A stretch of 45,686 nt of DNA from Myxococcota bacterium (GCA_035498015.1 DATKAO010000196.1:1-45686); one strand, 5' to 3'. Positions 1,967-20,234 are shown, counted from the stretch's first letter. Notes: generated from the letters alone by a model not told the origin. Numbers and translations: made by a program.

Positions 1967-4696
<2,730 letters not shown>

Positions 4697-4859
4697 CGAT
4701 GTACTCCTCCTGATTTCCTCGGGTTCCGCAGCGGAGCGCACTGCCAGCCACGTGCCAGCCTGCGCCGGGCGCGCGGTCTCACCAGTGGGGAGCGTTGCCA
4801 CAGCCGGGCGTGGCTGAGGCGCGGAGTCATTCCCACCGAACGGGTCGGGATCGAACTCA

Positions 4860-4868
4860 TGATAGGAT
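4860..4868 (+). promoter_or_regulatory. Extended -10 promoter element (TGATAGGAT)
   Basis: TG-A-TAGGAT matches an extended -10 element and lies 35 bases upstream of the DUF2254 start codon, in the 207-bp divergent intergenic region. No good -35 is visible, which is tolerated by extended -10 promoters. Nothing else is recognised in 4697-4903. Confidence 0.45.
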
Positions 4869-4903
4869 CATCCGGGGAGGGCTGCCGCCGCAGTGAGTCG
4901 AGA

Positions 4904-6163
4904 ATGAGCTGGCTGCTGCGCTTTCGGCTGAGACGGTTCGTTCGCCGCTCGCTCTGGCTCACGCCGGTGCTGGCGCTCGGCCTGGTCTGCATGGTCGCGC
5001 CGCTTCTCCTCCGGCTCGACCGCGCCATGGGCTGGGAATGGTTCGGCTTCACGCCGGATGGGGCGCGCGCGGTCCTGAGTGCGTTCACGGCTTCGATGCT
5101 CACCCTGGTCGTGTTCGTCGTGTCTTCGTTGCTGATCATCGTGCAGCTGGCCAGCGCGCAGCTGACTCCGCGGATCATTGCCATGGTCTTCGTCGACCGG
5201 CGCCTCAAGTGGGTGCTCAGCATCTTTGCCTTTGCCTACGGTTACACCATTGCCGCGTCGGGGCGAATCGAAGCGACGGCGCCGCAGCTGCCGGTCGCGT
5301 TCGCCATCTTCTGCAACCTGGCCTGCATCGCGCTCTTCTTCTGGTACGCGCAGTGGCTGGGTTCCTCGATGCGGCCGATCGCGGTGCTCCAGGCCGTGGC
5401 CAGTGAGGGGCACGCCGTGGTGGAGAGCGTCTATCCCGATCCGTTCGAGCCCGACGAGAAGCGGCCCGGCTGGTCCCCGGCTCCAGAAGCCGACGTCGTG
5501 GTGGTCGATCAGACCGAGAAGTCCGGCGTCGTTCTCGCGTTCAGTCTCGGCGACCTGCTGGCGTTGGCGCAACGCGCCGACGCGGTGATCGAGCTCGTGC
5601 CGCAGGTCGGTGACTTCGTGGCCCGAGGAGATCCGCTGTTTCGCATACGCAGGGGCGCTCGCGCCATCGACGTCGCTGCGCTGCGCGCGTGCATCGCCAC
5701 CGGCCCCGAGCGCACGGTGGAGCAGGATCCGCGCTTCGCCTTTCGCATCATCGTGGACATCGCCAACAAGGCGCTGTCACCGGCCATCAACGATCCGACG
5801 ACCGCCGTCCTGGCACTGGATCAAATCCATCACTTGCTGCTGGAGGTCGGCAAGCGCCGGCTCGACGCGGGACAGACGCGAGATGCGCAGGGTCGGCTGC
5901 GCCTGTGCTACCGGACACCCGACTGGATCGACTTCGTCGGCCTGGCCGTCACCGAAATTCGCCACTTCGGGGCCAGCAGCATGCAGGTGGCCCGCCGACT
6001 GCAAGCCATGATCGACCACCTGTTGAAGGTGCTGCCCGAGGCCCGCAAGGCGGCCTTGCGAGACGAGCTCGCCTTGCTGCGCGGCTCGGTCCAGCGCGTG
6101 TTTCCCGACGAGCAGGACCGCGCTCTGGCTCAGGTCGGCGACTTGCAAGGCTTGGGCAGCTGA
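4904..6163 (+). CDS. DUF2254 family integral membrane protein
   Basis: 419 residues matching the DUF2254 pattern: an N-terminal membrane domain with four hydrophobic segments (about residues 20-40, 60-85, 105-125 and 135-155) and a large soluble C-terminal domain. Family-typical stretches include VVFVVSSLLIIVQLASAQLTPR after the second helix, DPRFAFRIIVDIANKALSPAINDPTTAV in the middle, and HFGASSMQVARR near the end. The role of the family is unknown; some members sit with ion-transport genes. ATG 4904 begins MSWLLRFRLRR, a basic inside-facing start; an in-frame start at 4858 would add 15 residues. The SD is weak. It stands alone, downstream of its own extended -10 element. Confidence 0.85.
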   Translation: MSWLLRFRLRRFVRRSLWLTPVLALGLVCMVAPLLLRLDRAMGWEWFGFTPDGARAVLSAFTASMLTLVVFVVSSLLIIVQLASAQLTPRIIAMVFVDRRLKWVLSIFAFAYGYTIAASGRIEATAPQLPVAFAIFCNLACIALFFWYAQWLGSSMRPIAVLQAVASEGHAVVESVYPDPFEPDEKRPGWSPAPEADVVVVDQTEKSGVVLAFSLGDLLALAQRADAVIELVPQVGDFVARGDPLFRIRRGARAIDVAALRACIATGPERTVEQDPRFAFRIIVDIANKALSPAINDPTTAVLALDQIHHLLLEVGKRRLDAGQTRDAQGRLRLCYRTPDWIDFVGLAVTEIRHFGASSMQVARRLQAMIDHLLKVLPEARKAALRDELALLRGSVQRVFPDEQDRALAQVGDLQGLGS

Positions 6164-6233
6164 GAGCCTGGCGCCACGCGCACTGACTCGTCGGCGCGTG
6201 CTAAGCTGCGCTCCTGAACGGAGGGAGTCAGTC

Positions 6234-6596
6234 ATGCGCATTTTCGCAATTGCAGCCGCACTCGGTCTGTCACTCGCCCTGGGCGCGAGCGCTCACGCGG
6301 ATACGGTGATGGCGACGCCGGTCTATCTGATCGCCGCGACCGGCACGACCTGTGCCGTCACCAACGTGGGCAAGAAGCCGGTCACGGTGACGATCCAGGT
6401 GATCAAGTACAGCGAGGCCGGCGACGTGCTGCAGCATTCCACGCAGCAGGTCGAGCCCAATGGGTCGACCGGCCAGGGCGCGAGCACTCCGGATCCCACG
6501 TACGTCTACTGCCGGGTCAGCGGCAAGTTCTCGAGGAGCAGCCTGCGCGTGGCGGGACTCGTAGGCGCGACCAGCACCACGATTCCGGGCTACTGA
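6234..6596 (+). CDS. Small secreted protein of unknown function
   Basis: 120 residues with a clear signal peptide (MRIFAIAAALGLSLALGASAHA, cleavage near residue 22), preceded by GGAGGGAG at good spacing. The mature part of about 98 residues contains two Cys that could pair (TGTTCAVTNVGKKPVTVTIQ and YVYCRVSGKFSRSSLRV). It reads as an immunoglobulin-like beta sandwich with the NVGKKPVTVTIQVIK pattern seen in small surface proteins. No named family recognised. TAAGCT at 6202-6207 may be its -10 element. It ends 6 bp from a convergent gene. Confidence 0.75.
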   Translation: MRIFAIAAALGLSLALGASAHADTVMATPVYLIAATGTTCAVTNVGKKPVTVTIQVIKYSEAGDVLQHSTQQVEPNGSTGQGASTPDPTYVYCRVSGKFSRSSLRVAGLVGATSTTIPGY

Positions 6597-6602
6597 CGGG
6601 AG

Positions 6603-7149
6603 TCACCAGCCGCCGGTCCGCAGCCATTCTTCGACCATGGGGATCCGGTCCCAGCCCCAGAAGGGCTCGCCGTCCACCACGAAGAACGGCGAGCCGAAGA
6701 TCCCGCGCGCGACCGCGGCCTCACTCAGCGCGCGTGCGCGGTCCTTGATCACCGGCGCTTCCATGCCGGCCCGCACGAGAGTCACGTCGAGACCCAGCTC
6801 GCCGGCGAGCGCCGCCACGGCTTCCGCGTCGCTCGTGTCCAGCCGCCCGGAGTAGTAGCGGCGGAAGGTCTCGCGCGCGAAGGCCGTCTCGACGCCGGGT
6901 CGAGTCGTCTCGAGAAAGTAGAAGGCGCGCGTGGCGGGCAGGGCGACCTTCGGATGGTCCGCGGGTGGCTGGAAGGGCACCTGCAGGCGCCGCGCCGCCC
7001 GGGCCCAGTAAGGCCGTGCCCGACATGTAGGGGCGCCAGAGGATGGCGCGGCCGACGCGCGCGCCCAGCGCATCGACCTCCTGCGCGGCGAGATAGGCGT
7101 AGCCCGAGGAGAAGTCGAACCCGAATTCGATCGGCGCGCCGGCGGTCAT
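6603..7149 (-). pseudogene. 2-hydroxychromene-2-carboxylate isomerase-like (DsbA/kappa-GST fold), broken by an internal deletion and frameshift
   Basis: The intact family is a glutathione-dependent thioredoxin-fold isomerase used in aromatic degradation. From ATG 7149 one frame gives the N-terminal strand and helix (MTAGAPIEFGFDFSSGYAYL and RAILWRPYMSGTALL). The matching C-terminal part lies in another frame (WARAARRLQVPFQPPADHP, then ARGIFGSPFFVVDGEPFWGW with the cis-Pro region), ending at TGA 6603. The span of 547 bp is not a multiple of three. Compared with the family, about 20-25 residues normally found between the WRP-motif strand and the ARR helix are missing at about 7000-7030, so a deletion of 3n+2 bases fits. 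It could be an assembly error. It lies 8 bp behind the SDR gene, so the two formed an operon. Confidence 0.6.
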
Positions 7150-7157
7150 GGCGAGCG

Positions 7158-7895
7158 CTACACGAGCGTCATGCCGCCGTCGACGATCAGGACCTGGCCG
7201 GTCGAGTAACTCGCGCGCATGAGGTGCAGGTAGGCCTCGGCCACTTCGTCCGGTGCGCCGGCGCGCGGCAGGGGCAGGCGCGCAGTCATGCGGCGGAGCT
7301 GCTCTTCGCGGCGCTCTTCGGGGATGCTGTTCCACACCTCGGTGAGCACGAGGCCCGGGCACACGGCATTCACGCGCACCGGGGCAAGGTCGACCGCGAG
7401 CGCACGAGTCAGGTGCTCGATGGCCCCCGCCATCGCCGTGTTGAGCGCCGCGCCCTTGCGCGGGCGGTGAGCGACCACGCCGTTGGTGAGGGTGATCGAG
7501 CCATCGGGCGAGATGCGGCCCTGCGCGTGCTTGATGGCCGCGAGCGCGCCCCAGAAGCGGACGGCGAACACCGCGGTGGCGCCGCTGAAATCCAGCTCGG
7601 CGACGGGCGTGCCGCTGCGCAGCGCGGGCCAGTCTCCGGCGGTGAACACCAGGTGATCGAAGGGGCCGAGATTGGCGAAGAAGGCGGCGACGCTGGCTTC
7701 ATTCTTCACGTCGACTGCGGATCCGGACGCGCCGGCGCCCAGACGCTTCACTGCGTCCTCGACGTGGGCCGCGTGGCTCGACCCGACGACGACCTGCGCC
7801 CCCTCGCGGATGGCACGGTCCGCCACGGCAAAGCCGATGCCGGAGCTGCCGCCGATCACGACGACGCGCTTTTCCTCGAGCGTGGCAAGCGGCAT
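7158..7895 (-). CDS. Atypical short-chain dehydrogenase/reductase lacking the catalytic Tyr-Lys pair
   Basis: 245 residues of Rossmann-fold SDR. ATG 7895 follows AGGAGGTG at ideal spacing. The NAD(P)-binding motif is VVVIGGSSGIGFAVA (residues 11-25), with Asp62 (AVDV) for adenine binding and the usual C-terminal IVDGG. Where classical SDRs have YxxxK this protein has N152-T-A-M-A156, and the Ser-bearing strand reads SITLTNGVV. The catalytic Ser-Tyr-Lys triad is therefore not conserved, while the following helix (EHLTRALAVDLAPVRVNAV) aligns well. Such divergent SDRs exist; whether they are active enzymes is unclear. It is cotranscribed with the broken isomerase gene and diverges from the LLM oxidoreductase across 79 bp. 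Confidence 0.85.
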   Translation of the reverse strand: MPLATLEEKRVVVIGGSSGIGFAVADRAIREGAQVVVGSSHAAHVEDAVKRLGAGASGSAVDVKNEASVAAFFANLGPFDHLVFTAGDWPALRSGTPVAELDFSGATAVFAVRFWGALAAIKHAQGRISPDGSITLTNGVVAHRPRKGAALNTAMAGAIEHLTRALAVDLAPVRVNAVCPGLVLTEVWNSIPEERREEQLRRMTARLPLPRAGAPDEVAEAYLHLMRASYSTGQVLIVDGGMTLV

Positions 7896-7974
7896 GACGA
7901 CACCTCCTGTGGGCTGCGAGAGCATGGCACACGGCGCTTCCGGTTCGGGCATTCTGTGCCCAGGAGGACCCCAG

Positions 7975-8958
7975 ATGAAGCTCGCGCTCTACCTGCCCAA
8001 CCTTCGCGACCGGATCACCGTCAGCGAGATCGTCGATCTCTCGCACGAGGCAGAGGCGCTGGGCTTCGACTCGGTGTGGTCACTCGACCGGATCGTGGTG
8101 CCCGAGGCCTCGGACCGCGCGGCGCTGGAGAAGCCGTTCGGCTTCATCCAGGAGTTTCCGCGCGCGCTGCCGGTGCCGGCGCGCGGGGCCTTCCTGCACG
8201 GCATGCCACTCATTCCGTATCTCGCCGCGATCACCAAGCGCGTGCGCCTGGGCGTGAGCATCATCGTCACGCCGTACCGCGCGCCGGGCGTCCTGGCTGC
8301 CGAGCTCGCGACCTGGGATCACCTGTGCAACGGGCGACTCAACGTGGCCGTGGGCTCGGGCTGGATGCCCGAGGAGTTCGCCGCGGCCAGCGCCGCGCAC
8401 GTGTACGAGAAGCGCAACAAGCACGTGCGCGAGACCATCGAGGTCATGCAGGGCGTGTGGACCCACGAGCTGTTCGAGTATCACGGTGAGTTCGCCGACT
8501 TCCCGCTCTGCGGCTTCGGCGCGAAGCCGTTGCAGAAGCCGCGCCCGCCCATGTTCGTGGGCGGTCTGGCCAAGCCCGAGCTCGCGGCGAAGCGCGTGGC
8601 GAAATACGGCCTCGAGGGCTGGATCGGCATCATGGACACGCCCGGCGTGATCGCCGAGTGGCGCAAGGCGATCGAGAGCGAGCTCTCCAAGCTCGGACAC
8701 GCGCGCAAGATCGACGAGCTCGAGATCATGAGCATGCTGCCGTTCGAGATCACGCGCGAGAAGACCGACCAGACCGACCGCGGCAAGGCGACGCCGACGC
8801 TCGTCGGCACCGCGCAGCAGCTCACCGACAACCTGAAGCGCTACCGCGACGCGGGACTCACCATGCCGCTGCTCTGGCCGCCGTTCAGCGGTACCCCGAC
8901 CGCGAAGACCATCGGTGACATGCGGCGGCTGGTCGAGGAGATCCTGCCCAAGGTCTGA
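7975..8958 (+). CDS. LLM-class (luciferase-like) oxidoreductase, probably F420-dependent
   Basis: 327 residues forming a luciferase-like TIM barrel. The start is MKLALYLPNLRDRITVSEIV, followed by GFDSVWSLDRIVVPE, KRVRLGVSIIVTPYRAPGVLA, and the hallmark GRLNVAVGSGWMPEEFAA around residues 120-140. These match the TIGR03619-type F420-dependent group, abundant in Actinobacteria and several uncultured lineages; FMN use is the alternative. The substrate is unknown. ATG 7975 follows AGGAGG (7961-7966). It is divergent from the SDR gene, suggesting a shared redox catabolic theme. A pair of overlapping palindromes follows the stop. Confidence 0.88.
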   Translation: MKLALYLPNLRDRITVSEIVDLSHEAEALGFDSVWSLDRIVVPEASDRAALEKPFGFIQEFPRALPVPARGAFLHGMPLIPYLAAITKRVRLGVSIIVTPYRAPGVLAAELATWDHLCNGRLNVAVGSGWMPEEFAAASAAHVYEKRNKHVRETIEVMQGVWTHELFEYHGEFADFPLCGFGAKPLQKPRPPMFVGGLAKPELAAKRVAKYGLEGWIGIMDTPGVIAEWRKAIESELSKLGHARKIDELEIMSMLPFEITREKTDQTDRGKATPTLVGTAQQLTDNLKRYRDAGLTMPLLWPPFSGTPTAKTIGDMRRLVEEILPKV

Positions 8959-8972
8959 CGAGGCTCGTGACC

Positions 8973-8993
8973 GAAGTCTGACTTCTGCAGAAG
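8973..8993. promoter_or_regulatory. Two overlapping palindromes in an intergenic spacer
   Basis: GAAGTC-T-GACTTC (8973-8985) and the perfect 12-mer CTTCTGCAGAAG (8982-8993) share bases, so RNA from this region could form either of two exclusive hairpins. They lie 15-35 bases after the LLM gene stop and 52 bases before the next start. There is no T-tract, so a standard terminator is not supported; an operator is possible. Confidence 0.35.
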
Positions 8994-9031
8994 GTGATGC
9001 GCGTTTAATCGTCGCCGGTCCGCGCGGTCCG

Positions 9032-9037
9032 TAAGAT
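9032..9037 (+). promoter_or_regulatory. -10-like element TAAGAT, leaderless start proposed
   Basis: TAAGAT ends 7 bases before the ATG at 9045 and no Shine-Dalgarno sequence is present. A transcript from this element would begin at or next to the start codon. Confidence 0.4.
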
Positions 9038-9044
9038 CGCGCGC

Positions 9045-10217
9045 ATGAGACACACGAAGATCCTCGGCATCGCGCTGGCGCTGTGCATGGCCCAGGCCCT
9101 TCCCGCCCGAGCCGCGCAAGTCAGCTTCCAGCTCTTCGGCAAGGTCACCAAAGTCACGGGCACGGCGCTCTCGGGTCTCGCCGCGCTCGGCGTGAAGAAG
9201 AACGCGCCGGTCACGATCGAGTGGACCGAGGAGCTCACGACGCCCGTCCACGACACGAATCCCGCGATTCACAGCACGAGCTACTGGGCCACCACGCCCG
9301 ACAACGGGATCACCGCCTTCACGATCCAGATCGGAAGCTGGACCGCCACGGCCGCGAACGCGCCCGATCCGAATGCGATCACGGTGAACGTGATCAGCGT
9401 GGTCGACGGCTTCGAGGGCGGCTCGCAAGATACGCTGGACCTGTCCCACACGTCGACCGACACGGGAGACCTGATCAGCGACGGCGGCTCGCTCGGGTCG
9501 GAGATCGTGGTCAACCTGCTCGCCAAGCTCGGCGGCGGCAGCACGAGCCAGGCGCTGGGCGACCAGACGCCGAGTCAGTACCCGGACAGCTCGGGCTTCG
9601 TGAGTGGCTCGGGCGGCGAGGTCGACTTCACCATCCCCGGCCCCGACCCCACCGTGAAGTGCCGCGCGGCGCAGATCGCGAGCGCGGGCACGCTGTGCAA
9701 GAGCGCGCTGGGCTGCCTCGCGAGCCACGCGAAGGCGCCGGACAAGGATCCGATGAGCGTGAAGGTCGAGGCCTGCCTGGACAAGGCGCGCCAGAAGTTC
9801 ATCACGGCCTTCGACAAGGAGACGTCGTCGGCGCTGAGTCACGGGCTGAGCTGCGGGACCGCCGAGGACGGCGCAACCTTCGAAGCCCACTTCGAGGTCG
9901 CCGCACTGGCGACCAAGAATCTCATCGATTCGGTCCAGCCTCAGGATCCGCCGGTCATCGCGCCCTTGTTCTCGGGCGCGGGCACGATGTGCAGCACGGG
10001 CGCCAAGGCCGAGTCCAAGAACGTGCAGAAGCCCTCCTCGAAGGTCGTGCTGTTGCGCGAGAACGCGCGCATCAAGCTCGGCAACGCCGCGAGCCAGCTC
10101 GTCGCGAAGGCCGAGAGCAAGGGAGTCACGTTCGATCCGGCGCCCGACGTTCCCGGAATCGTGTCGTCGGTCGACGCGCTGATCGACGACATCGTCGCGG
10201 AGGTCGACGGCGACTGA
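9045..10217 (+). CDS. Secreted six-cysteine protein, paralogue of the 12923-14086 gene
   Basis: 390 residues with a signal peptide (MRHTKILGIALALCMAQALP, cleavage after ARA near residue 23). The N-terminal domain (about 25-195) is Thr/Ser-rich beta sequence with the segment TIQIGSWTA. The C-terminal domain (about 200-385) is helical and carries Cys at 206, 218, 224, 244, 270 and 316, followed by FDPAPDVPGIVSSVDALIDD. The paralogue on the opposite strand has six Cys with exactly the same spacings. No named family is recognised; a disulfide-bonded secreted or periplasmic protein is likely. It has its own leaderless-type promoter and ends 1 bp from the convergent amidohydrolase gene. Confidence 0.85.
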   Translation: MRHTKILGIALALCMAQALPARAAQVSFQLFGKVTKVTGTALSGLAALGVKKNAPVTIEWTEELTTPVHDTNPAIHSTSYWATTPDNGITAFTIQIGSWTATAANAPDPNAITVNVISVVDGFEGGSQDTLDLSHTSTDTGDLISDGGSLGSEIVVNLLAKLGGGSTSQALGDQTPSQYPDSSGFVSGSGGEVDFTIPGPDPTVKCRAAQIASAGTLCKSALGCLASHAKAPDKDPMSVKVEACLDKARQKFITAFDKETSSALSHGLSCGTAEDGATFEAHFEVAALATKNLIDSVQPQDPPVIAPLFSGAGTMCSTGAKAESKNVQKPSSKVVLLRENARIKLGNAASQLVAKAESKGVTFDPAPDVPGIVSSVDALIDDIVAEVDGD

Positions 10218-12922: not shown

Positions 12923-14086
12923 TCAGTGGGCCTCGAGCGCGTTCGCCGCGCCGTCGATCGCGTCGTCGACCGAGCCGACGAAGCCCGGGACGTCGGGGTC
13001 GGGGTCGAACACGACGCCCTTCTTCTCGGCCTTCTCGACGGCCTTGCCGGCGGCGGTGCCGAGTTTGTCGCGGCCCTTCTGGCGCGCGACGGCGAGCTTC
13101 GACGCGTCGGGCTTCGCGCTGTTCTTGCCCTCGGCCTTGATGCCCGCGCCGCAGGCGCTGGCGGCCGCGCCCAGCCACGACGACTCGAGCGCGGGGGTCG
13201 GAGGAGTCACCGCGTCGGCCCGGACGGCCGAGAAGGCGACCAGGTTGCCGATCACCATGCGCGCCACGTCGCCCGAGACGGAGAGCGGGCACGCGAGGTG
13301 CTTGCGCTCGGCGCCGACTCCGGCCTTGTCGAAGGCGGTCAGGAACTTGCCATCGGCCTTGGCCGTGCAGGCGTTCAGCACGGCGCTCGCGGGGTCCTTC
13401 TCGGGCGCCTTGGCGCGCCTGGCGAGACACTGGAAGCGCGACTGACAGAGCGCCGCGGCGGCGTTCAGCCGGGCCGTGTGACAGGCCGCCTTCGGGTCCT
13501 TGGTGCTGCCGCCCCCGCCGCTGCCTGGCTTGAACTCGAAGTACACCTGTCCGTAAGTGCCGGTGGCTGCGCCGACGAGGGTCGTGTACTTGTTCGGGTT
13601 CTGATCCAGCGCCTGCCCGTTGCTGGCGCTGGCCGAGCCCACGAACTGCAGCGAGAGGACCAGCTCGGGGGCGAGGTTCGGGTCGCCCAGCATGACGTGA
13701 TTCGTGTCGTCGCCGGGCGCGGTGAGATACAGGATGTCCGCCGACGCGTTGTCACTCACCGAGACCAGATTCTGCATGGCCACCACCGCGTCGCTGCGGG
13801 ACGCGGTCCAGCTCCCGATCTGGAGCTTTAGCTCCGCGATCGCGCCGGTGTAGTGGGTCTGGTCGGCGGCGTCCTGCGAGCCGGGTGTCGAGAGCTCGAG
13901 CGTGTAGTCGACCTGCACGGTCGCACCCTCGCTCACCCCCAGGTCGTGGAGAGCGCCGGTGTGGTCGCCGCCCAGCCCAGCCAGGACGTGCAGCACGCGC
14001 CCGGTGACGTGGTAGCTCTTGGTCGCGGCCCCGGCGGGGTCCGTCCAAGCGAAAGCCAGCAAAAGAAACGCGAAGACCCGCCGCAC
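12923..14086 (-). CDS. Secreted six-cysteine protein, paralogue of the 9045-10217 gene
   Basis: 387 residues from GTG 14086 (preceded by CCGGAGGCGG). A signal peptide (MRRVFAFLLLAFAWTDPAGA) is followed by a beta-rich domain that includes ELKLQIGSWTA, a Gly-rich linker (GSGGGGSTKDP, about 188-198), and the helical Cys domain with Cys at 202, 214, 220, 240, 266 and 312. These spacings equal those of the plus-strand paralogue. The end repeats the motif FDPDPDVPGFVGSVDDAID. Function unknown. It lies between the monoheme cytochrome and the SMP-30 gene on the same strand. A role in the electron-transfer locus is possible only by position. Confidence 0.85.
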   Translation of the reverse strand: MRRVFAFLLLAFAWTDPAGAATKSYHVTGRVLHVLAGLGGDHTGALHDLGVSEGATVQVDYTLELSTPGSQDAADQTHYTGAIAELKLQIGSWTASRSDAVVAMQNLVSVSDNASADILYLTAPGDDTNHVMLGDPNLAPELVLSLQFVGSASASNGQALDQNPNKYTTLVGAATGTYGQVYFEFKPGSGGGGSTKDPKAACHTARLNAAAALCQSRFQCLARRAKAPEKDPASAVLNACTAKADGKFLTAFDKAGVGAERKHLACPLSVSGDVARMVIGNLVAFSAVRADAVTPPTPALESSWLGAAASACGAGIKAEGKNSAKPDASKLAVARQKGRDKLGTAAGKAVEKAEKKGVVFDPDPDVPGFVGSVDDAIDGAANALEAH

Positions 14087-14151: not shown

Positions 14152-14460
14152 TCAGCGCGGCACGGCGGCGGCGATCGCCGCGAGCTCCTCGTCCGACAGC
14201 TTCCCCGAGAGTGTCTTGTGGCGCGGGCTCGTGCGCACGTGCTTCACGATGTCGTCGGCGCTGAGCTTGGTGCCGGCGAGCGCGGGCACCTTCATGGCCT
14301 TGGCGGCGGCGCTGTCGGCCTTGCCGTCGGCGCCGTGACAGCCGGCGCAGTTCTTGGTGAACAGCGCGGCGCCTTCGACCGCCGCCCCCGAGACGCGGGC
14401 CGTGAAGGGGAATGCGAGCACGAGTGCGAGGACGGCGAGGCGTGACTGCAGGGTGCGCAT
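14152..14460 (-). CDS. Small class I cytochrome c, monoheme, His in place of the usual distal Met
   Basis: 102 residues, exported (signal peptide about residues 1-26, ending VSGA). One heme motif CAGCH (C38, C41, H42). The C-terminal helix follows the class I pattern (SGKLSDEELAAIAAAV), but where relatives have a Met in a MPxF-type loop this protein has His81 (RHKTLSG). Met56 (KAMKVPAL) is an alternative ligand but lies at an unusual position. It follows the barrel gene by 12 bp and should be periplasmic, fitting a soluble electron carrier for the porin-cytochrome complex. SD on the minus strand is AAAGGGAGAAATTC. Confidence 0.9.
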   Translation of the reverse strand: MRTLQSRLAVLALVLAFPFTARVSGAAVEGAALFTKNCAGCHGADGKADSAAAKAMKVPALAGTKLSADDIVKHVRTSPRHKTLSGKLSDEELAAIAAAVPR

Positions 14461-14472
14461 GAATTTCTCCCT

Positions 14473-16602
14473 TTAGAAGTGGTAGACCACACTCAGACTG
14501 AACAGGTGGGCGCCGTAGTTCTCGAGCCCGTCGTTCAGGAACACGTCGTTGTTCGTGCCGAGCAGGGGCTGTCCCTCCACGTTGCTCGTCAGGCGAGTCA
14601 CTCCGAGCCCGTCGAACTGCCAGTCGTGCTGGTCGTAGCTCTCGTAGCGGTAGCGCGCGATCAGGCTCAGGTGCTCGTCGTAGCGATAGCGGAGGCTCGT
14701 GTTCGCCGCCCACAGCGTGTCGGCGATCTCGGGGAAGTCGACCGCGTCGGGCGGCGTGCCATTGGTCTGGTTGCGGCCGTTGCCGGCCTGGATGAAGAAT
14801 CCGGCGCTGAACAGCACGCGCTCGGGCACGAGCTGGAGTGTCAGGTCGATGCCGCCGGTATGCGCGGTGTCCTGCTCCTGGCTGCGCCACACGGCCGTGC
14901 CGCCCGACGCCGCGCTGCGCATCAGCATCGCGATCCAGTCGTAGCTGTAGTAGGCCGAGATCTCGACGCGCGGATGCGGGTGGTAGCTGAGCTCGAAACC
15001 CACGTCCCAGCGGTCGTCGGAGAGCAGGCCGAAGTCACCCTGGGTCCAGTCCGTCAGGTGCATGTCGCCGGTGAGCGTGAGGTCCACGTTCTCGCGCAGG
15101 AAGAACTGCGACAGGAGCTGCAGGTTGTGACTGTGGTTGTCGGCCTCGTCGAACTTGCGGATCGGCGGAGTGAGTGGCGAGTGCGGCACGCCCGGCTCGA
15201 TCGCGTCGAACGGGGCCAGCTCGTCGTAGCTGCTGCCGGTGCGCGTGCGATAGACGTACGACGTCTGGAAGCGCGCCCAGCTCCCGGCGCGGTAGTCGAG
15301 CCGCGCCTCGGGGCTGAACTCGTCCAGGTGCCGCACCTCGCGCTCGGGCCCGCGGTCCCAGTGCTCCCAGTTGAAGGCGAGCGTGGCCTTGGCCGCGCTG
15401 GTGATCCGGTAGGCGCCTTGCACGCCGGCGTTCTGCGTGATGAAGCTCGGCGCGAAGGAGCGGCGGGTCTCGGCGGTGAGTCCCGCGTCGGTGGTCGAGG
15501 TCTGCGTGAACAGGATCTCGTTGCTCTTGTTGTCGTAGTCGTAGATGCGGTAGCGCGCGGTCACGTCGAACGCGCGCGCCGGCCGCGCGGTGAACACGAA
15601 GTTGGCGAGCAGCGGGCGGACGTCGCCGCCCAGGTTGCTCGCGGGCAGCGGCGCGGGAGTCGACAGCGGATTCACCGTGAGCGCCACGAAGCTCTCGTCC
15701 TGGCGCCGGAAGCCGTAGGCGATCGTGCCCGCGAGACGTGACACGAACGGGGTCGGCAGCACGGTCGAGCCGCTCAGCGAGATCATGTGCGACAGGTTGT
15801 CCGGCGCCGCTGCGATCGCGCCCAGCGACGAGCCGCCCGCGAACGGCGCCGGGTTCTCGACCTGGAACGAGCGGAAGTGATTGTCGAAGTAGCTGAGCGT
15901 GTAGCTCGCGCCCAGGCTGTACGAGTCACGCGCGAACAAGAGCTCGGCCGAGCCCTCGCGCGTGTGCTCGTCGACCGGCTCGGGAAAGTGCACGAAGTTG
16001 CTGAAGCCGAAGGTGATCTGATCGGGCCGCCGCCCGTCGCGGTCGAGCGCGCGGTAGCCGGCGCGCAGCTCGGTGTCCTGGTTGGGCTTGTAGAACGCGC
16101 CGACGTTGGCCTCGTTGGCGTCGAAGCCGAGCTTCGCGTCCACGGCCGAGCTCGTGACCAGCGACTCGAAGCCCGCGGTGTCGGCGGGCGGAGCGCCGGG
16201 CAGGAACAGCTTGCCGCTGTCGACGCCGAGATAGGGCGACAGCGCCTGGTTGCTGTAGTTGTGCGGCAGGAGTGAGTACGCCCCCGAGATGCCCCAGTGA
16301 CCAAAGCGCCCGCCCTCGAGGAAGTAGTCGGCGTCCTTCTCGCCCATGTCGAAGCCGCCGAAGTGGAGATAGTGCAGGTCGTCGAGATCCTGCAGCGTGA
16401 AGTCGGCCGCGCCGAACACTCCCTCGTGCGGGTCGCGGTATTCGAGGAACTTCGCCGAGTGGTCGTCGCCGAGGACTCCGCGCCCGCCCATCTCGAGCCA
16501 GCCCGAGAGAGTCGTGGGGCCCAAGTCCACGTCGGCGCGCGCCGGCGCGGCCCAGAGCGCCAGCCAACCGAGCGCGAGCAGCCATGGCTGGAGTCGGCGC
16601 AT
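14473..16602 (-). CDS. MtrB/PioB family decaheme-associated outer-membrane beta-barrel
   Basis: 709 residues. Signal peptide MRRLQPWLLALGWLALWAAP (cleavage after ARA near 23), then a long run of alternating amphipathic strands and a C-terminal outer-membrane signature ending SLSVVYHF. The N-terminal part (LSGWLEMGGRGVLGDDHSAKF and EYRDPHEGVFGAADF) and length match the MtrB/PioB/DmsF family, the pore that sheathes an MtrA-type decaheme cytochrome. I see no cysteine in the protein, so it lacks the N-terminal CXXC of Shewanella MtrB. It starts 9 bp after the decaheme gene stop, so expression is coupled. Role: outer-membrane half of an electron conduit. Confidence 0.88.
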   Translation of the reverse strand: MRRLQPWLLALGWLALWAAPARADVDLGPTTLSGWLEMGGRGVLGDDHSAKFLEYRDPHEGVFGAADFTLQDLDDLHYLHFGGFDMGEKDADYFLEGGRFGHWGISGAYSLLPHNYSNQALSPYLGVDSGKLFLPGAPPADTAGFESLVTSSAVDAKLGFDANEANVGAFYKPNQDTELRAGYRALDRDGRRPDQITFGFSNFVHFPEPVDEHTREGSAELLFARDSYSLGASYTLSYFDNHFRSFQVENPAPFAGGSSLGAIAAAPDNLSHMISLSGSTVLPTPFVSRLAGTIAYGFRRQDESFVALTVNPLSTPAPLPASNLGGDVRPLLANFVFTARPARAFDVTARYRIYDYDNKSNEILFTQTSTTDAGLTAETRRSFAPSFITQNAGVQGAYRITSAAKATLAFNWEHWDRGPEREVRHLDEFSPEARLDYRAGSWARFQTSYVYRTRTGSSYDELAPFDAIEPGVPHSPLTPPIRKFDEADNHSHNLQLLSQFFLRENVDLTLTGDMHLTDWTQGDFGLLSDDRWDVGFELSYHPHPRVEISAYYSYDWIAMLMRSAASGGTAVWRSQEQDTAHTGGIDLTLQLVPERVLFSAGFFIQAGNGRNQTNGTPPDAVDFPEIADTLWAANTSLRYRYDEHLSLIARYRYESYDQHDWQFDGLGVTRLTSNVEGQPLLGTNNDVFLNDGLENYGAHLFSLSVVYHF

Positions 16603-16611
16603 GCGGCGTCC

Positions 16612-17580
16612 TCAGCGGGTGAGCGCGAAGCCCGACGGGTGGTTCGAGCCGTGCACCTGGGTGTGACACTGCAGGCACGACGTGGCCACGGCGAAGCGGT
16701 CGTTGGGGTTGCGCGGACTGGTCGCGTGGCCGGTCGACACGTGACAGGTCTGGCAGAGCCGCGGCACGTTCATCTTCAGCATCGCGTGCCGCGTGCTGCC
16801 GTGGGGGTCGTGACAGTTCAGGCAGTCCTCGACCACCGGCGAGTGCTCCCACAGGAACGGGCCGCGCTTGTCGCCGTGGCAGGAGAGACATTCGTCGTTG
16901 ACGGTGACGTGGCGGATCAGGTTCGGGTTCACGGTGCCGTGCGGCTGGTGACAGGAGCTGCAGCGCATCTTGCCTTCCGCGGCGGTGCTCACCTCGAACG
17001 AGCCCGGGCGCAGCGGCATGTGCGCATTGCGGAACGCGCGCGAGTACTGGGCGGGATGACAGCGCGCGCACGTCTCGACCTCGGTCGGCCCGGCGAGCAG
17101 GCGCGTCTGCGAGACACTCTCCATCAGCGTGTGGCACTTCGTGCACGCCACGTCGGCGGCCTGGTGCGCGCTGCCCGCCCAGTAGGTCCGGTCACCCCCG
17201 TGGTGACAGGCCATGCAGGCCGTGTTGATGCGCTGGGTGGCCTCGGGTGAGTCGTCGCCGAAGGGCACGAAGCCGCCGACGCCACGCCCGCCGCCCTGGC
17301 TCACGTGCGCCTCGCCGGGGCCGTGACAGGCCTCGCAGCCGTGCGCGGCCAGGGCCCCCTGCGCGTTCTTCGCGCTCAGCACGTGCGCGTGCGCGGTGTG
17401 TCCGTACTTCGCGCTGAAGCCGGGCTTCATGGACTCGTGACACGCCAGACAGGCCTCGTCGCCCACGTAGCCCGAGGCCGCGGCCTCCGGCTCGGCCGGC
17501 TTCGCCTCGGGGGTCTGCGTCCGGCACGCGCTCACTGCGGCGAGCAGCGCGCCGAAGAGCAGCCCCAGGCCGCGGCTCAA
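16612..17580 (-). CDS. Decaheme c-type cytochrome, DmsE/MtrA/PioA type, predicted lipoprotein
   Basis: 322 residues from TTG 17580. That start is supported by GGAG 8 bases upstream, by the TTGA overlap with the preceding stop, and because it yields a lipoprotein signal (LLFGALLAAVSAC, Cys19). Ten CXXCH motifs start at about residues 44, 82, 122, 146, 171, 207, 231, 253, 276 and 302: CLACH, CEACH, CMACH, CTKCH, CARCH, CSSCH, CLSCH, CLNCH, CQTCH, CLQCH. Spacing and additional His residues fit the DmsE/MtrA family that fills the MtrB barrel as a molecular wire. A lipid anchor is not typical of MtrA, which is soluble until it binds MtrB. If real, it would tie the wire to a membrane. Confidence 0.92.
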   Translation of the reverse strand: MSRGLGLLFGALLAAVSACRTQTPEAKPAEPEAAASGYVGDEACLACHESMKPGFSAKYGHTAHAHVLSAKNAQGALAAHGCEACHGPGEAHVSQGGGRGVGGFVPFGDDSPEATQRINTACMACHHGGDRTYWAGSAHQAADVACTKCHTLMESVSQTRLLAGPTEVETCARCHPAQYSRAFRNAHMPLRPGSFEVSTAAEGKMRCSSCHQPHGTVNPNLIRHVTVNDECLSCHGDKRGPFLWEHSPVVEDCLNCHDPHGSTRHAMLKMNVPRLCQTCHVSTGHATSPRNPNDRFAVATSCLQCHTQVHGSNHPSGFALTR

Positions 17581-17750
17581 TCCGAGCTCCGCGTGCGGAA
17601 GCGCGCCAAGAGAGCCAGCGCCACGCCCAGCACGACGCTGGGCGTTCCCAGGAACGTCGCGCGCGTGGCGGTGTCGCCGTTCAGATCGAAGAGTGACTGC
17701 GCCAACGGCACCAGACCCAGCGCGATCAGCACGCTCGCGAGCCGGATCAT
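17577..17750 (-). CDS. 57-residue membrane protein inside the porin-cytochrome operon
   Basis: Two hydrophobic segments, MIRLASVLIALGLVPLAQSL and GTPSVVLGVALALLARF, separated by FDLNGDTATRATFL and ending in a basic tail (RTRSSD). ATG 17750 overlaps the stop of the NapC-like gene (ATGA), and its own TGA overlaps the decaheme TTG start (TTGA). It is therefore translated from within the operon and coupled on both sides. Family not recognised. By position it may help assembly or link the inner-membrane cytochrome to the decaheme lipoprotein; this is inference. Confidence 0.75.
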   Translation of the reverse strand: MIRLASVLIALGLVPLAQSLFDLNGDTATRATFLGTPSVVLGVALALLARFRTRSSD

Positions 17751-18379
17751 TTCCTGCTCCCATTCAGCGCTTCGGCTGGGTGCGCGGAAGGGTGACAGGC
17801 CCCGGTGCACGACATCTCGCGCGAGACGAGCGCCTTCTGGGTCTCGGGGTCGGTGTGGAACGGGACGGCGCGAAACTTCGGCGACTGCATGTGACACTCG
17901 AGGCAAGAATCGATGTCGAAAGGCTCGTTCATCGCGAGCGGGTACTGGTAGCTGCCCCAGAGCTCGTGCCACATGTGCCGCAGCCCGGCGCGCTTCGCGC
18001 TGAAGTCACCGAGCAGGCCGTACCCGCTGTGACACGTGTAGCAGGCGGTGTCTCCCTTGATCGCGCCGCTCTGGTAGTGGATCGAGGCCAGCGAGTCGTT
18101 GGCTTGCTTCATGCTCGCGACGACCGGGGCCATGGGCTCGTGGCAGGAGCCGCAGAACACGACCTCCTGGGTGCGGTCGAGCATGACCAGGTTCGCGATC
18201 AGGAGCGCGAATGCGGGCATTGCGACCAGCCCGAACAGTCCGACCTCGCCAGACACCCGGCCTCGGACCAGCGCGAACAGTGCAAAGCCGAACGCTGCGG
18301 CCGTCGCCGCGATCCCCAGCGCCCAGAGCAGGTGGAAGTGCGGCTTGGCCGCGAACAGCGGTCCCAGGTCTTCGCCCAT
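17747..18379 (-). CDS. NapC/NirT-like membrane-anchored multiheme cytochrome c
   Basis: 210 residues. Two hydrophobic segments (about residues 15-38 and 46-66) precede the heme domain, whereas NapC proteins usually have one. Heme motifs: CGSCH (76, in the family-typical FCGSCHEPM), CYTCH (113), CLECH (159) and a fourth, CTGACH (191-196), which is CX3CH rather than CX2CH. The family oxidises menaquinol/ubiquinol at the inner membrane and passes electrons to periplasmic partners (as NapC, NrfH, CymA do). First gene of the tightly overlapped cytochrome set. ATG 18379 is preceded by a GGCGC-rich leader and by TATCAT on the minus strand (18402-18397) as a possible -10. Confidence 0.88.
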   Translation of the reverse strand: MGEDLGPLFAAKPHFHLLWALGIAATAAAFGFALFALVRGRVSGEVGLFGLVAMPAFALLIANLVMLDRTQEVVFCGSCHEPMAPVVASMKQANDSLASIHYQSGAIKGDTACYTCHSGYGLLGDFSAKRAGLRHMWHELWGSYQYPLAMNEPFDIDSCLECHMQSPKFRAVPFHTDPETQKALVSREMSCTGACHPSAHPAEALNGSRK

Positions 18380-18396: not shown

Positions 18397-18405
18397 ATGA
18401 TATCA
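18397..18405 (-). promoter_or_regulatory. Extended -10 element (TGATATCAT) before the cytochrome operon
   Basis: On the minus strand TG-A-TATCAT lies 17 bases before the NapC-like ATG and overlaps the stop codon of the SLC13 gene. It resembles the extended -10 at 4860-4868. It could give the cytochrome genes their own promoter in addition to read-through from upstream. Confidence 0.4.
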
Positions 18406-19803
18406 GCGCGCCGCGCCCCAGAGCAGGAGAATCCACGGCGTGCCCGCGATCAGGAAGATCGCGAGCAGGACCGCGGTCGACACCGCGCCCACGCGATACA
18501 GCTCGCGCTGGGTCACATAGCCGCTCGCGGCGAACAGCACGTTGGCGCTCGACGCCTGCGGAGTGAGTCCCGAGAAGTAGTTGCTCGCGAACAACAGCCC
18601 GAAGGCGAGCAGCGCCGCCGGCACGCCCCGGTCGACGCCGACCTCCAGGAACACCGGGAGCAGCGCCATCAGGTGCGCGGTCTGACTCACGAACAGGTAG
18701 TGCAGCACCACGTAGAGCGCGACCAGCAGCGCGTACACCGCCGGCCAGGGCAGCCCGGCGAGCGCCGCGGCGAGCTGGTGGCCCGCGAAGGTGGTGAAGC
18801 CGTAGCGATCGAGCGCGCTGGCCAGCGCGAACAGCGCCGCGAACCAGATGAACGTGCCCAGCGCCTCGCCCTCGCTCTTCAGGTGGTCGGCGGTGTAGAC
18901 GCCGGTCGCCATGAGCAGCCCCAGCCCGAGAAACGCGACCGCCGTATTGTCGAGCCCGAGCACAGACGAGGTCGCCCACGCCAGCACCATGAGCACGAAG
19001 ATCAGCGCGACCGTGCGCTCGTCGCGGGAGAGCGGTCCGAGCCGTGCGAGCGCCTCACGCGCGCGCTGCGGAGCATCGGGTGTGCGCTCGATCTCGGGCC
19101 GCGCGAGCCGGTACACGACCCACGGCATCGCGGCCAGCGCCACGAGCGAGGGCACGATCGCCGTCGCGAGCCAGCTCGCGAAGCCGATCTCGACCCCGTG
19201 CTCGCGCGCGAACTCGGCGCCCACCGGGTTGGCCGCCATGGCAGTCAGCCACAAGCCCGACGAGACCGCGAGACTCGTGATGCCACACAACATGAGATAT
19301 TTGCCCATGCGCCCGGCGCTCCCGTCGTCGGGCCGCGAGTCACCGTGCAGCGCGAGTGACAGCGCGAGCGGATAGATCACGCCCGAGCGCGCGGTGTTGC
19401 TCGGGAAGCCCGGCGCGATCAGCGCATCGGTGAGGAACACGCTGTAGCCCAGTCCGAGCGTCGAGCCGCCGAAGCGCGCCACGACCAGGTGGCCGATGCG
19501 CGCGCCCAGGCCCGAAGTCACCACCGTGCGCGCCACCAGGAACGCCACCATGATCAGCAGGATCACGCTGCGCGAGAAACCCTGATAGGCGTCCTCGGCG
19601 GTCAGAGCGCCGGACAGCACCGCAATGGCCAGCGCCAGGATCGCGACCACCAGGATCGGGAAGGCCTCGAGCAGGATGGCCAGGATGGCGGCTGCGAACA
19701 CGGCGAACGCGTGCCAGGCGCGCGGATCCAACCCCTCGGGCGCCGGCACGAGCCAGAGCGCCAGGCCGAGTGCGAGCGGCACGGCGACTCGCCACGGCTT
19801 CAA
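18403..19803 (-). CDS. DASS/SLC13-family sodium/anion transporter
   Basis: 466 residues with about 12 hydrophobic segments. The DASS pattern shows in a first half with VILLIMVAFLVARTVVTSGLG and FLTDALIAPGFPSNTARSG (the SNT-like substrate loop) and a second half with HYLFVSQTAHLMALLPVF and SNYFSGLTPQASSANVLF (the second SNT-equivalent loop). Family members import or exchange di- and tricarboxylates or sulfate across the inner membrane. The start appears to be TTG 19803, overlapping the stop of the preceding gene by TTGA; the SD is poor, so the start is less certain. Immediately upstream of the cytochrome genes. Confidence 0.87.
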   Translation of the reverse strand: MKPWRVAVPLALGLALWLVPAPEGLDPRAWHAFAVFAAAILAILLEAFPILVVAILALAIAVLSGALTAEDAYQGFSRSVILLIMVAFLVARTVVTSGLGARIGHLVVARFGGSTLGLGYSVFLTDALIAPGFPSNTARSGVIYPLALSLALHGDSRPDDGSAGRMGKYLMLCGITSLAVSSGLWLTAMAANPVGAEFAREHGVEIGFASWLATAIVPSLVALAAMPWVVYRLARPEIERTPDAPQRAREALARLGPLSRDERTVALIFVLMVLAWATSSVLGLDNTAVAFLGLGLLMATGVYTADHLKSEGEALGTFIWFAALFALASALDRYGFTTFAGHQLAAALAGLPWPAVYALLVALYVVLHYLFVSQTAHLMALLPVFLEVGVDRGVPAALLAFGLLFASNYFSGLTPQASSANVLFAASGYVTQRELYRVGAVSTAVLLAIFLIAGTPWILLLWGAAR

Positions 19804-20234
19804 GTCCCATCACCCTCGAGGTCGGCGCGGCCCGTGTCCCGGATTCCTCTCACCAGATTCTCGCGCGCGCTCCTGGCCAGCCTGCGATAGGTGCTGCGCA
19901 CCTCGTCGAACTCGCGCTCCTCGAGCTCCTCCAGGTCGAGCAGCGCGTTGTGCGCGCCCTCGGTGACTCGAATGAGCTCGTCGAGCTTGATCTGCAGAGA
20001 CTCGGTGTCCCGGTTCTGGGTGTTCTGGATCAGGAATACCATCAGGAAGGTCGCGATCGTGGTGCCCGTGTTGATGATGAGCTGCCAGGTGTCGCTCCAC
20101 TGGAACAGTGGACCGGTGGCTGCCCACGTCAGCACGATCGCACAGGCGAGGACGAACGACGCGGGCCGGCCGGTCGCGTGCGAGGTCGCCTTGGCGAGCC
20201 TCGCGAACCAGGAAGAAGCTTTGGTGGGTCTCAT
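19800..20234 (-). CDS. Low-affinity iron permease-like protein
   Basis: 144 residues. Two hydrophobic segments (ASFVLACAIVLTWAATGPLF and TWQLIINTGTTIATFLMVFL) are followed by the signature FLIQNTQNRDTESLQIKLDELIR and an acidic coiled-coil-like region (LLDLEELEEREFDEVRSTYR). This is the PF04120 family, named for yeast low-affinity iron transport although many bacterial members are uncharacterised. ATG 20234 follows GGAGGTTCCCG. First gene of the long minus-strand run that contains the extracellular-electron-transfer genes. An iron link is attractive but unproven. Confidence 0.85.
   Translation of the reverse strand: MRPTKASSWFARLAKATSHATGRPASFVLACAIVLTWAATGPLFQWSDTWQLIINTGTTIATFLMVFLIQNTQNRDTESLQIKLDELIRVTEGAHNALLDLEELEEREFDEVRSTYRRLARSARENLVRGIRDTGRADLEGDGT

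Follow-up and report, generated by a model that had tools for sequence, protein, structure and literature searches.

A five-gene locus in a 45,686-nucleotide stretch of DNA from a Myxococcota bacterium (GCA_035498015.1 DATKAO010000196.1:1-45686; this whole stretch is called the window here, and coordinates count from its first letter) is best explained as a quinone-linked electron conduit of the MtrAB/MtoAB kind running across the cell envelope, an assignment that we consider likely to be correct. The genes (Table 1) encode a tetraheme membrane cytochrome, a small membrane protein, a decaheme cytochrome c, an outer-membrane β-barrel, and a periplasmic monoheme cytochrome c. The conduit itself belongs to an already known type. 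What is new is its inner-membrane end, where a two-helix tetraheme cytochrome is paired with a tiny two-helix protein, an arrangement undescribed in the open-access literature that we searched. In the mechanism that we propose, the tetraheme and its 57-residue partner would pass electrons to, or take them from, the quinones of the membrane, probably menaquinone. The periplasm would be crossed directly or via the monoheme cytochrome, which probably has an MtoD/PmcA-like role. The decaheme, held inside the 26-strand barrel, would span the outer membrane as a wire of ten hemes. The chain would thus run between the menaquinone pool, the tetraheme with its small subunit, the decaheme in its barrel, and the outside; with the outermost decaheme heme reaching the surface, a separate surface cytochrome would not be needed, as in MtoAB and PioAB.

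The decaheme and barrel genes form a conserved MtrA-MtrB pair

We compared the barrel with protein family models and with the solved Shewanella Mtr complex (6R2Q). It scores above the cut-offs of PF11854 (323.7 bits, cut-off 23) and TIGR03509 (291 bits, cut-off 240) and is homologous to MtrB of 6R2Q by sequence search. A structure model of the barrel (pLDDT 83.4, pTM 0.78) contains 26 long strands, the number likewise predicted for PioB and MtoB (PMC10654088), and its best fold match in the PDB is again MtrB (6R2Q_B, E 7.6e-37, TM-scores 0.82/0.90); the next-ranked matches are TonB-type barrels with TM-scores of about 0.4. No CXXC motif occurs anywhere in the protein. The decaheme matches the DmsE-family model TIGR03508 (233.9 bits, cut-off 192.2) and aligns over residues 39-321 with MtrA of 6R2Q (E 2.7e-58). 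Its ten CxxCH motifs are invariant among 25 relatives, and nine additional histidine residues are kept in at least 96% of them, which together with the ten proximal histidines fits bis-histidine heme ligation. The MtrA-MtrB-type core named in the initial annotation is thus borne out by sequence for both proteins, with family matches well above anything expected by chance, and for the barrel also by fold.

The two genes are consistently found together. A PF11854 search over 91 genomes of the class to which this bacterium belongs matched 26, with 23 above the cut-off. A gene for a ten-heme MtrA-family protein adjoins the barrel gene in all 22 class loci with a readable neighborhood, the window included, and the only four barrel loci lacking a decaheme (L008, L061, L067, and L072) all carry barrels cut by contig ends. 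We therefore dropped chance adjacency as an explanation; the idea that such barrels might consistently occur without a decaheme partner does not apply here, and the two proteins probably form a complex. In a sample of 379 genomes from the phylum, 22 contain the barrel at E <= 1e-20, all from this class, and none was found in the approximately 290 sampled genomes outside it. On this sampling, a single class of the phylum accounts for the MtrAB-type conduits. The window belongs to a six-member clade in both the decaheme and the barrel tree (supports 99/94 and 99/99, respectively).

The decaheme carries a predicted lipobox, as initially annotated. This feature is missing from its nearest orthologues (L058, L060, L066, and L070) and is present in a second decaheme of the same genome; we thus no longer regard lipidation as a defining trait of the protein. 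The second, distinct decaheme is encoded at the end of contig C27 (L007:5132-6082, +), and a second MtrB-family barrel is found at the start of contig C175 (L008:1-2403, +). Both fall outside the clade of the window and probably represent one split MtrAB pair.

A two-gene membrane module at the inner membrane

The tetraheme cytochrome contains the heme motifs CGSCH, CYTCH, CLECH, and CTGACH, that is, three CX2CH motifs followed by a fourth of the CX3CH type, with a methionine directly after heme I. Hydropathy analysis predicts two N-terminal transmembrane segments in this protein and in all class members. It thereby departs from the NapC/NirT/NrfH pattern, which combines a single N-terminal transmembrane segment with four CX2CH motifs. 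All 13 relatives scanned match the Pfam NapC/NirT family (PF03264) at E <= 0.01, and we consider it probable that the protein reacts with quinones. Across the wider tetraheme family (L074-L103) the fourth heme motif differs by clade, being CX2CH, CX3CH, or CX4CH, with CX3CH found in the class of the window.

Searching the phylum, we found strong relatives of the tetraheme in eight genomes of the class, and another 31 genomes gave weaker ones. In 30 of the 30 genomes whose loci we examined, a small hydrophobic open reading frame directly follows the tetraheme gene, overlapping it by 4 bp in 26; among 271 other genes of the same loci set, only three are followed by a two-transmembrane reading frame at -4. 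The small membrane protein, noted initially as an addition to the locus, is thus a constant neighbor of the tetraheme rather than an incidental one, and it is probably a subunit of the tetraheme module. Its family has no convincing match in Pfam, NCBIfam, or the PDB (the DUF202 match of the window protein reaches 13.9 bits, cut-off 23.4). The analysis brings out a conserved two-gene module, probably quinone-linked, whose small member is unnamed in the family libraries used. Among the steps of extracellular electron transfer, the passage of electrons into or out of the quinone pool is one of the less well established, and the proposal that a small membrane subunit accompanies a tetraheme cytochrome can be put to a direct test. 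In one relative (L066:1240-1842, +) the small protein continues at its C-terminus into a fused cNMP-binding domain (PF00027), and it may thus be ligand-regulated in that lineage.

The pair also occurs beside other multiheme proteins. It adjoins OmcA/MtrC-family cytochromes in L107 (251 bits) and L110 (454 bits, cut-off 209 in both cases), and other cytochromes with at least ten hemes in L109, L113, and L115. In the L110 locus (4198-9112, +), the genes for the tetraheme and the small protein are joined in a single run by those for a triheme, for an outer-membrane candidate of porin size, and for the OmcA/MtrC decaheme; this may be another kind of porin-cytochrome conduit, lacking MtrA and MtrB.

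The five-gene combination recurs in varying order

Five genomes, each from a different genus, have the tetraheme-small protein pair beside the conduit. The order in the window is tetraheme-small protein-decaheme-barrel-monoheme; in L066 the monoheme gene comes first (monoheme-tetraheme-small protein-decaheme-barrel), and in L052 decaheme and barrel precede the pair (decaheme-barrel-tetraheme-small protein-monoheme). The tetraheme, small protein, and monoheme genes are convergent with decaheme-barrel in L056, and in L049 the pair is upstream of two opposite-strand cytochrome genes followed by decaheme-barrel. These differing orders indicate a recurring combination, not a single frozen operon.

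Within the clade of the window, L058, L060, and L070 lack the pair; each has a CBS-domain gene and a monoheme gene. Upstream of the decaheme, beside their conduits, we found an NqrF-like gene in L058 and L060 and an ApbE-like gene in L070, which suggests that the outer-membrane wire is linked to a Na+-translocating NADH:quinone reductase in these genomes. No NqrF or ApbE gene lies beside the conduit in the window.

No MtrC/OmcA surface cytochrome gene above cut-off in the genome

The window contains no MtrC/OmcA gene, as initially annotated, and the OmcA/MtrC model TIGR03507 finds nothing above its cut-off in the whole genome, which is 95% complete. The same model gives no match above cut-off in 22 conduit-bearing genomes, with one partial match in G023 (190.6 bits). 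Closely spaced CxxCH pairs, sought across the genome, turned up on five contigs only, which account for this locus, the second decaheme, and a further three multiheme proteins; the reversed-pattern control gave no hits. On contig C125 (L010:5394-7409, -), a redoxin/thioredoxin-like domain and a multiheme domain of the cytochrome c554 type are fused, with nine CxxCH motifs in frame. The absence of MtrC is not new, being usual for MtoAB and PioAB, and MtrAB alone is able to pass electrons across a membrane (PMC4245776, PMC5566968).

Comparison with known conduits and quinone modules

We compared the locus with conduits for which functions have been reported. The gene set is almost that of the Mto cluster in Sideroxydans lithotrophicus ES-1 (MtoA, MtoB, MtoD, ImoA, and PmcA; slit_2494-2498) (PMC13390432), which likewise combines a decaheme, an MtrB-type barrel, an inner-membrane NapC/NirT-family tetraheme, and monoheme cytochrome c, without MtrC (PMC13390432, PMC5566968). 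The Mto cluster differs in that ImoA is reported with a single uncleaved N-terminal transmembrane anchor, whereas our tetraheme has two transmembrane segments and a CX3CH fourth heme motif, in having two monohemes rather than one, and in lacking a counterpart to the conserved 57-residue protein; this genome also differs by its menD gene and its lack of RuBisCO. PioAB of Rhodopseudomonas palustris TIE-1 shares the decaheme and barrel and the absence of a surface cytochrome, but there PioC is a high-potential iron-sulfur protein, no tetraheme is present, and the role is in phototrophic Fe(II) oxidation (PMC5566968, PMC6831781). The homology to Shewanella MtrCAB described above is accompanied by three differences: no MtrC gene is found here, the barrel lacks CXXC, and the inner-membrane module is other than the single-transmembrane CymA. 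Shewanella DmsEFAB has a decaheme of the TIGR03508 family with a barrel, as here, but we found no DmsA/DmsB-like gene beside the conduit among the neighbors inspected.

The tetraheme resembles CymA, CbcL/MtrH/MtoC, and ImcH in being a membrane multiheme protein of the kind that serves as quinone oxidoreductase in extracellular electron transfer (PMC6295460). CymA has one transmembrane segment and four hemes, CbcL/MtrH/MtoC usually have six transmembrane segments, and ImcH has three with about seven hemes and a CX3CH motif adjoining the transmembrane domain (PMC6295460). Our module differs from all of these by its two transmembrane segments, its four hemes, of which the last has the atypical motif, and a separate two-transmembrane protein. 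It may represent a fourth architecture among the quinone modules of extracellular electron transfer, widespread in the phylum and interchangeable between MtrAB conduits and OmcA/MtrC-type surface cytochromes, a proposal for and against which we see equal grounds.

Direction of electron flow and alternative explanations

Direction is not readable from the genes alone, as illustrated by ImoA, which comes from an iron-oxidizing host and yet can oxidize quinol when placed in Shewanella (PMC9600427). The genome encodes MenD (465.7 bits, cut-off 244.2), has no match for the futalosine pathway, and contains no RuBisCO. The presence of MenD, the absence of RuBisCO, and the finding that relatives have this pair next to OmcA/MtrC together make us lean toward outward flow, with menaquinol being oxidized onto an extracellular acceptor. 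The direction, which the initial annotation held could not be told, thus remains unproven, with outward flow somewhat favored.

Several observations weigh against an outward, quinone-linked conduit. The genomic indicators of direction are weak. The structure model of the decaheme is poor (pLDDT 57), and a fold search with it gave no match. The tetraheme barely exceeds the PF03264 cut-off (27.7 versus 24.1 bits) and reaches only 16.6 bits against the NCBIfam NapC/NirT model TIGR02161 (cut-off 310.6) and 20.8 bits against the NrfH model TIGR03153 (cut-off 134.2). Its annotation as a NapC/NirT-like quinol cytochrome can thus be kept at the level of the Pfam family, whereas the protein lies outside both named NCBIfam subfamilies. 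The pair, moreover, adjoins the conduit in no more than 5 of the 23 class genomes with a barrel above cut-off, and the barrel-decaheme core thus appears able to use other inner-membrane partners.

Electrons could instead flow inward, in an MtoAB/PioAB-like conduit for the oxidation of Fe(II) or minerals, in which Fe(II) would reduce the decaheme, the monoheme would carry electrons inward, and either the tetraheme would reduce quinone or the monoheme would feed an oxidase. The gene composition, with a monoheme cytochrome c and an ImoA-type tetraheme as in the Mto cluster (PMC13390432, PMC5566968), would suit this role, as would the missing MtrC/OmcA and the missing CXXC in the barrel. We nevertheless consider inward flow rather unlikely, given that the near-complete genome has no RuBisCO, that it encodes MenD while menaquinone synthesis is reported as missing from Sideroxydans ES-1 (PMC13390432), and that relatives place the same tetraheme pair with OmcA/MtrC-type cytochromes. 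The pair might alternatively serve another periplasmic reductase and lie beside the conduit by accident. It does occur in two genomes in which we found no MtrB (G017 and G033), and in G045 it lies away from the conduit and adjoins an octaheme cytochrome. Its position beside conduits in five genera, in varied gene orders, and its proximity to surface multiheme cytochromes in several relatives make such an accident improbable. Membership of the decaheme in the DmsE family could point to a DmsEF-type system in which the electrons go to an enzyme outside the cell, such as a molybdoenzyme, and not to minerals or electrodes. The genome's second decaheme also matches TIGR03508, however, and no DmsA/DmsB-like or other molybdoenzyme gene was noticed among the neighbors inspected in the window and in the readable relatives, although no genome-wide profile search for molybdoenzymes was made; we regard this role as very improbable. 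A quinone-linked MtrAB/MtoAB-type conduit, with outward flow somewhat favored, thus accounts best for the locus.

Gene layout and neighboring genes

All five genes annotated initially as a co-directional set with gaps of at most 12 bp are present (14152-18379), with successive junctions of -4, -4, +9, and +12 bp. The start codon of the decaheme gene is most likely a TTG, predicted to overlap the stop of the small-protein gene.

Table 1. Genes of the conduit locus and its upstream neighbors.
Gene product	Position	Strand	Length	Remarks
Tetraheme membrane cytochrome, NapC/NirT/NrfH-like	17747-18379	-	210 aa	Two transmembrane segments
Small membrane protein	17577-17750	-	57 aa	Two predicted transmembrane segments
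MtrA/DmsE-family decaheme cytochrome c	16612-17580	-	322 aa	10 CxxCH; lipobox VSAC
MtrB/PioB-family outer-membrane β-barrel	14473-16602	-	709 aa	26 predicted strands; cysteine-free
Periplasmic monoheme class I cytochrome c	14152-14460	-	102 aa	
DASS symporter	18403-19803			Upstream neighbor, 23 bp from the tetraheme gene
PF04120 'low affinity iron permease'	19800-20234			Upstream neighbor

The two transporter genes upstream are indeed present, but tblastn found no homologue of either in the relatives' loci examined, and we dropped them as parts of the system. A scan for sigma-70 promoters and terminators gave counts close to those of shuffled sequence. Two secreted proteins, neither with a Pfam match, flank the region (9045-10217, +, and 12923-14086, -) and have similar C-terminal cysteine patterns.

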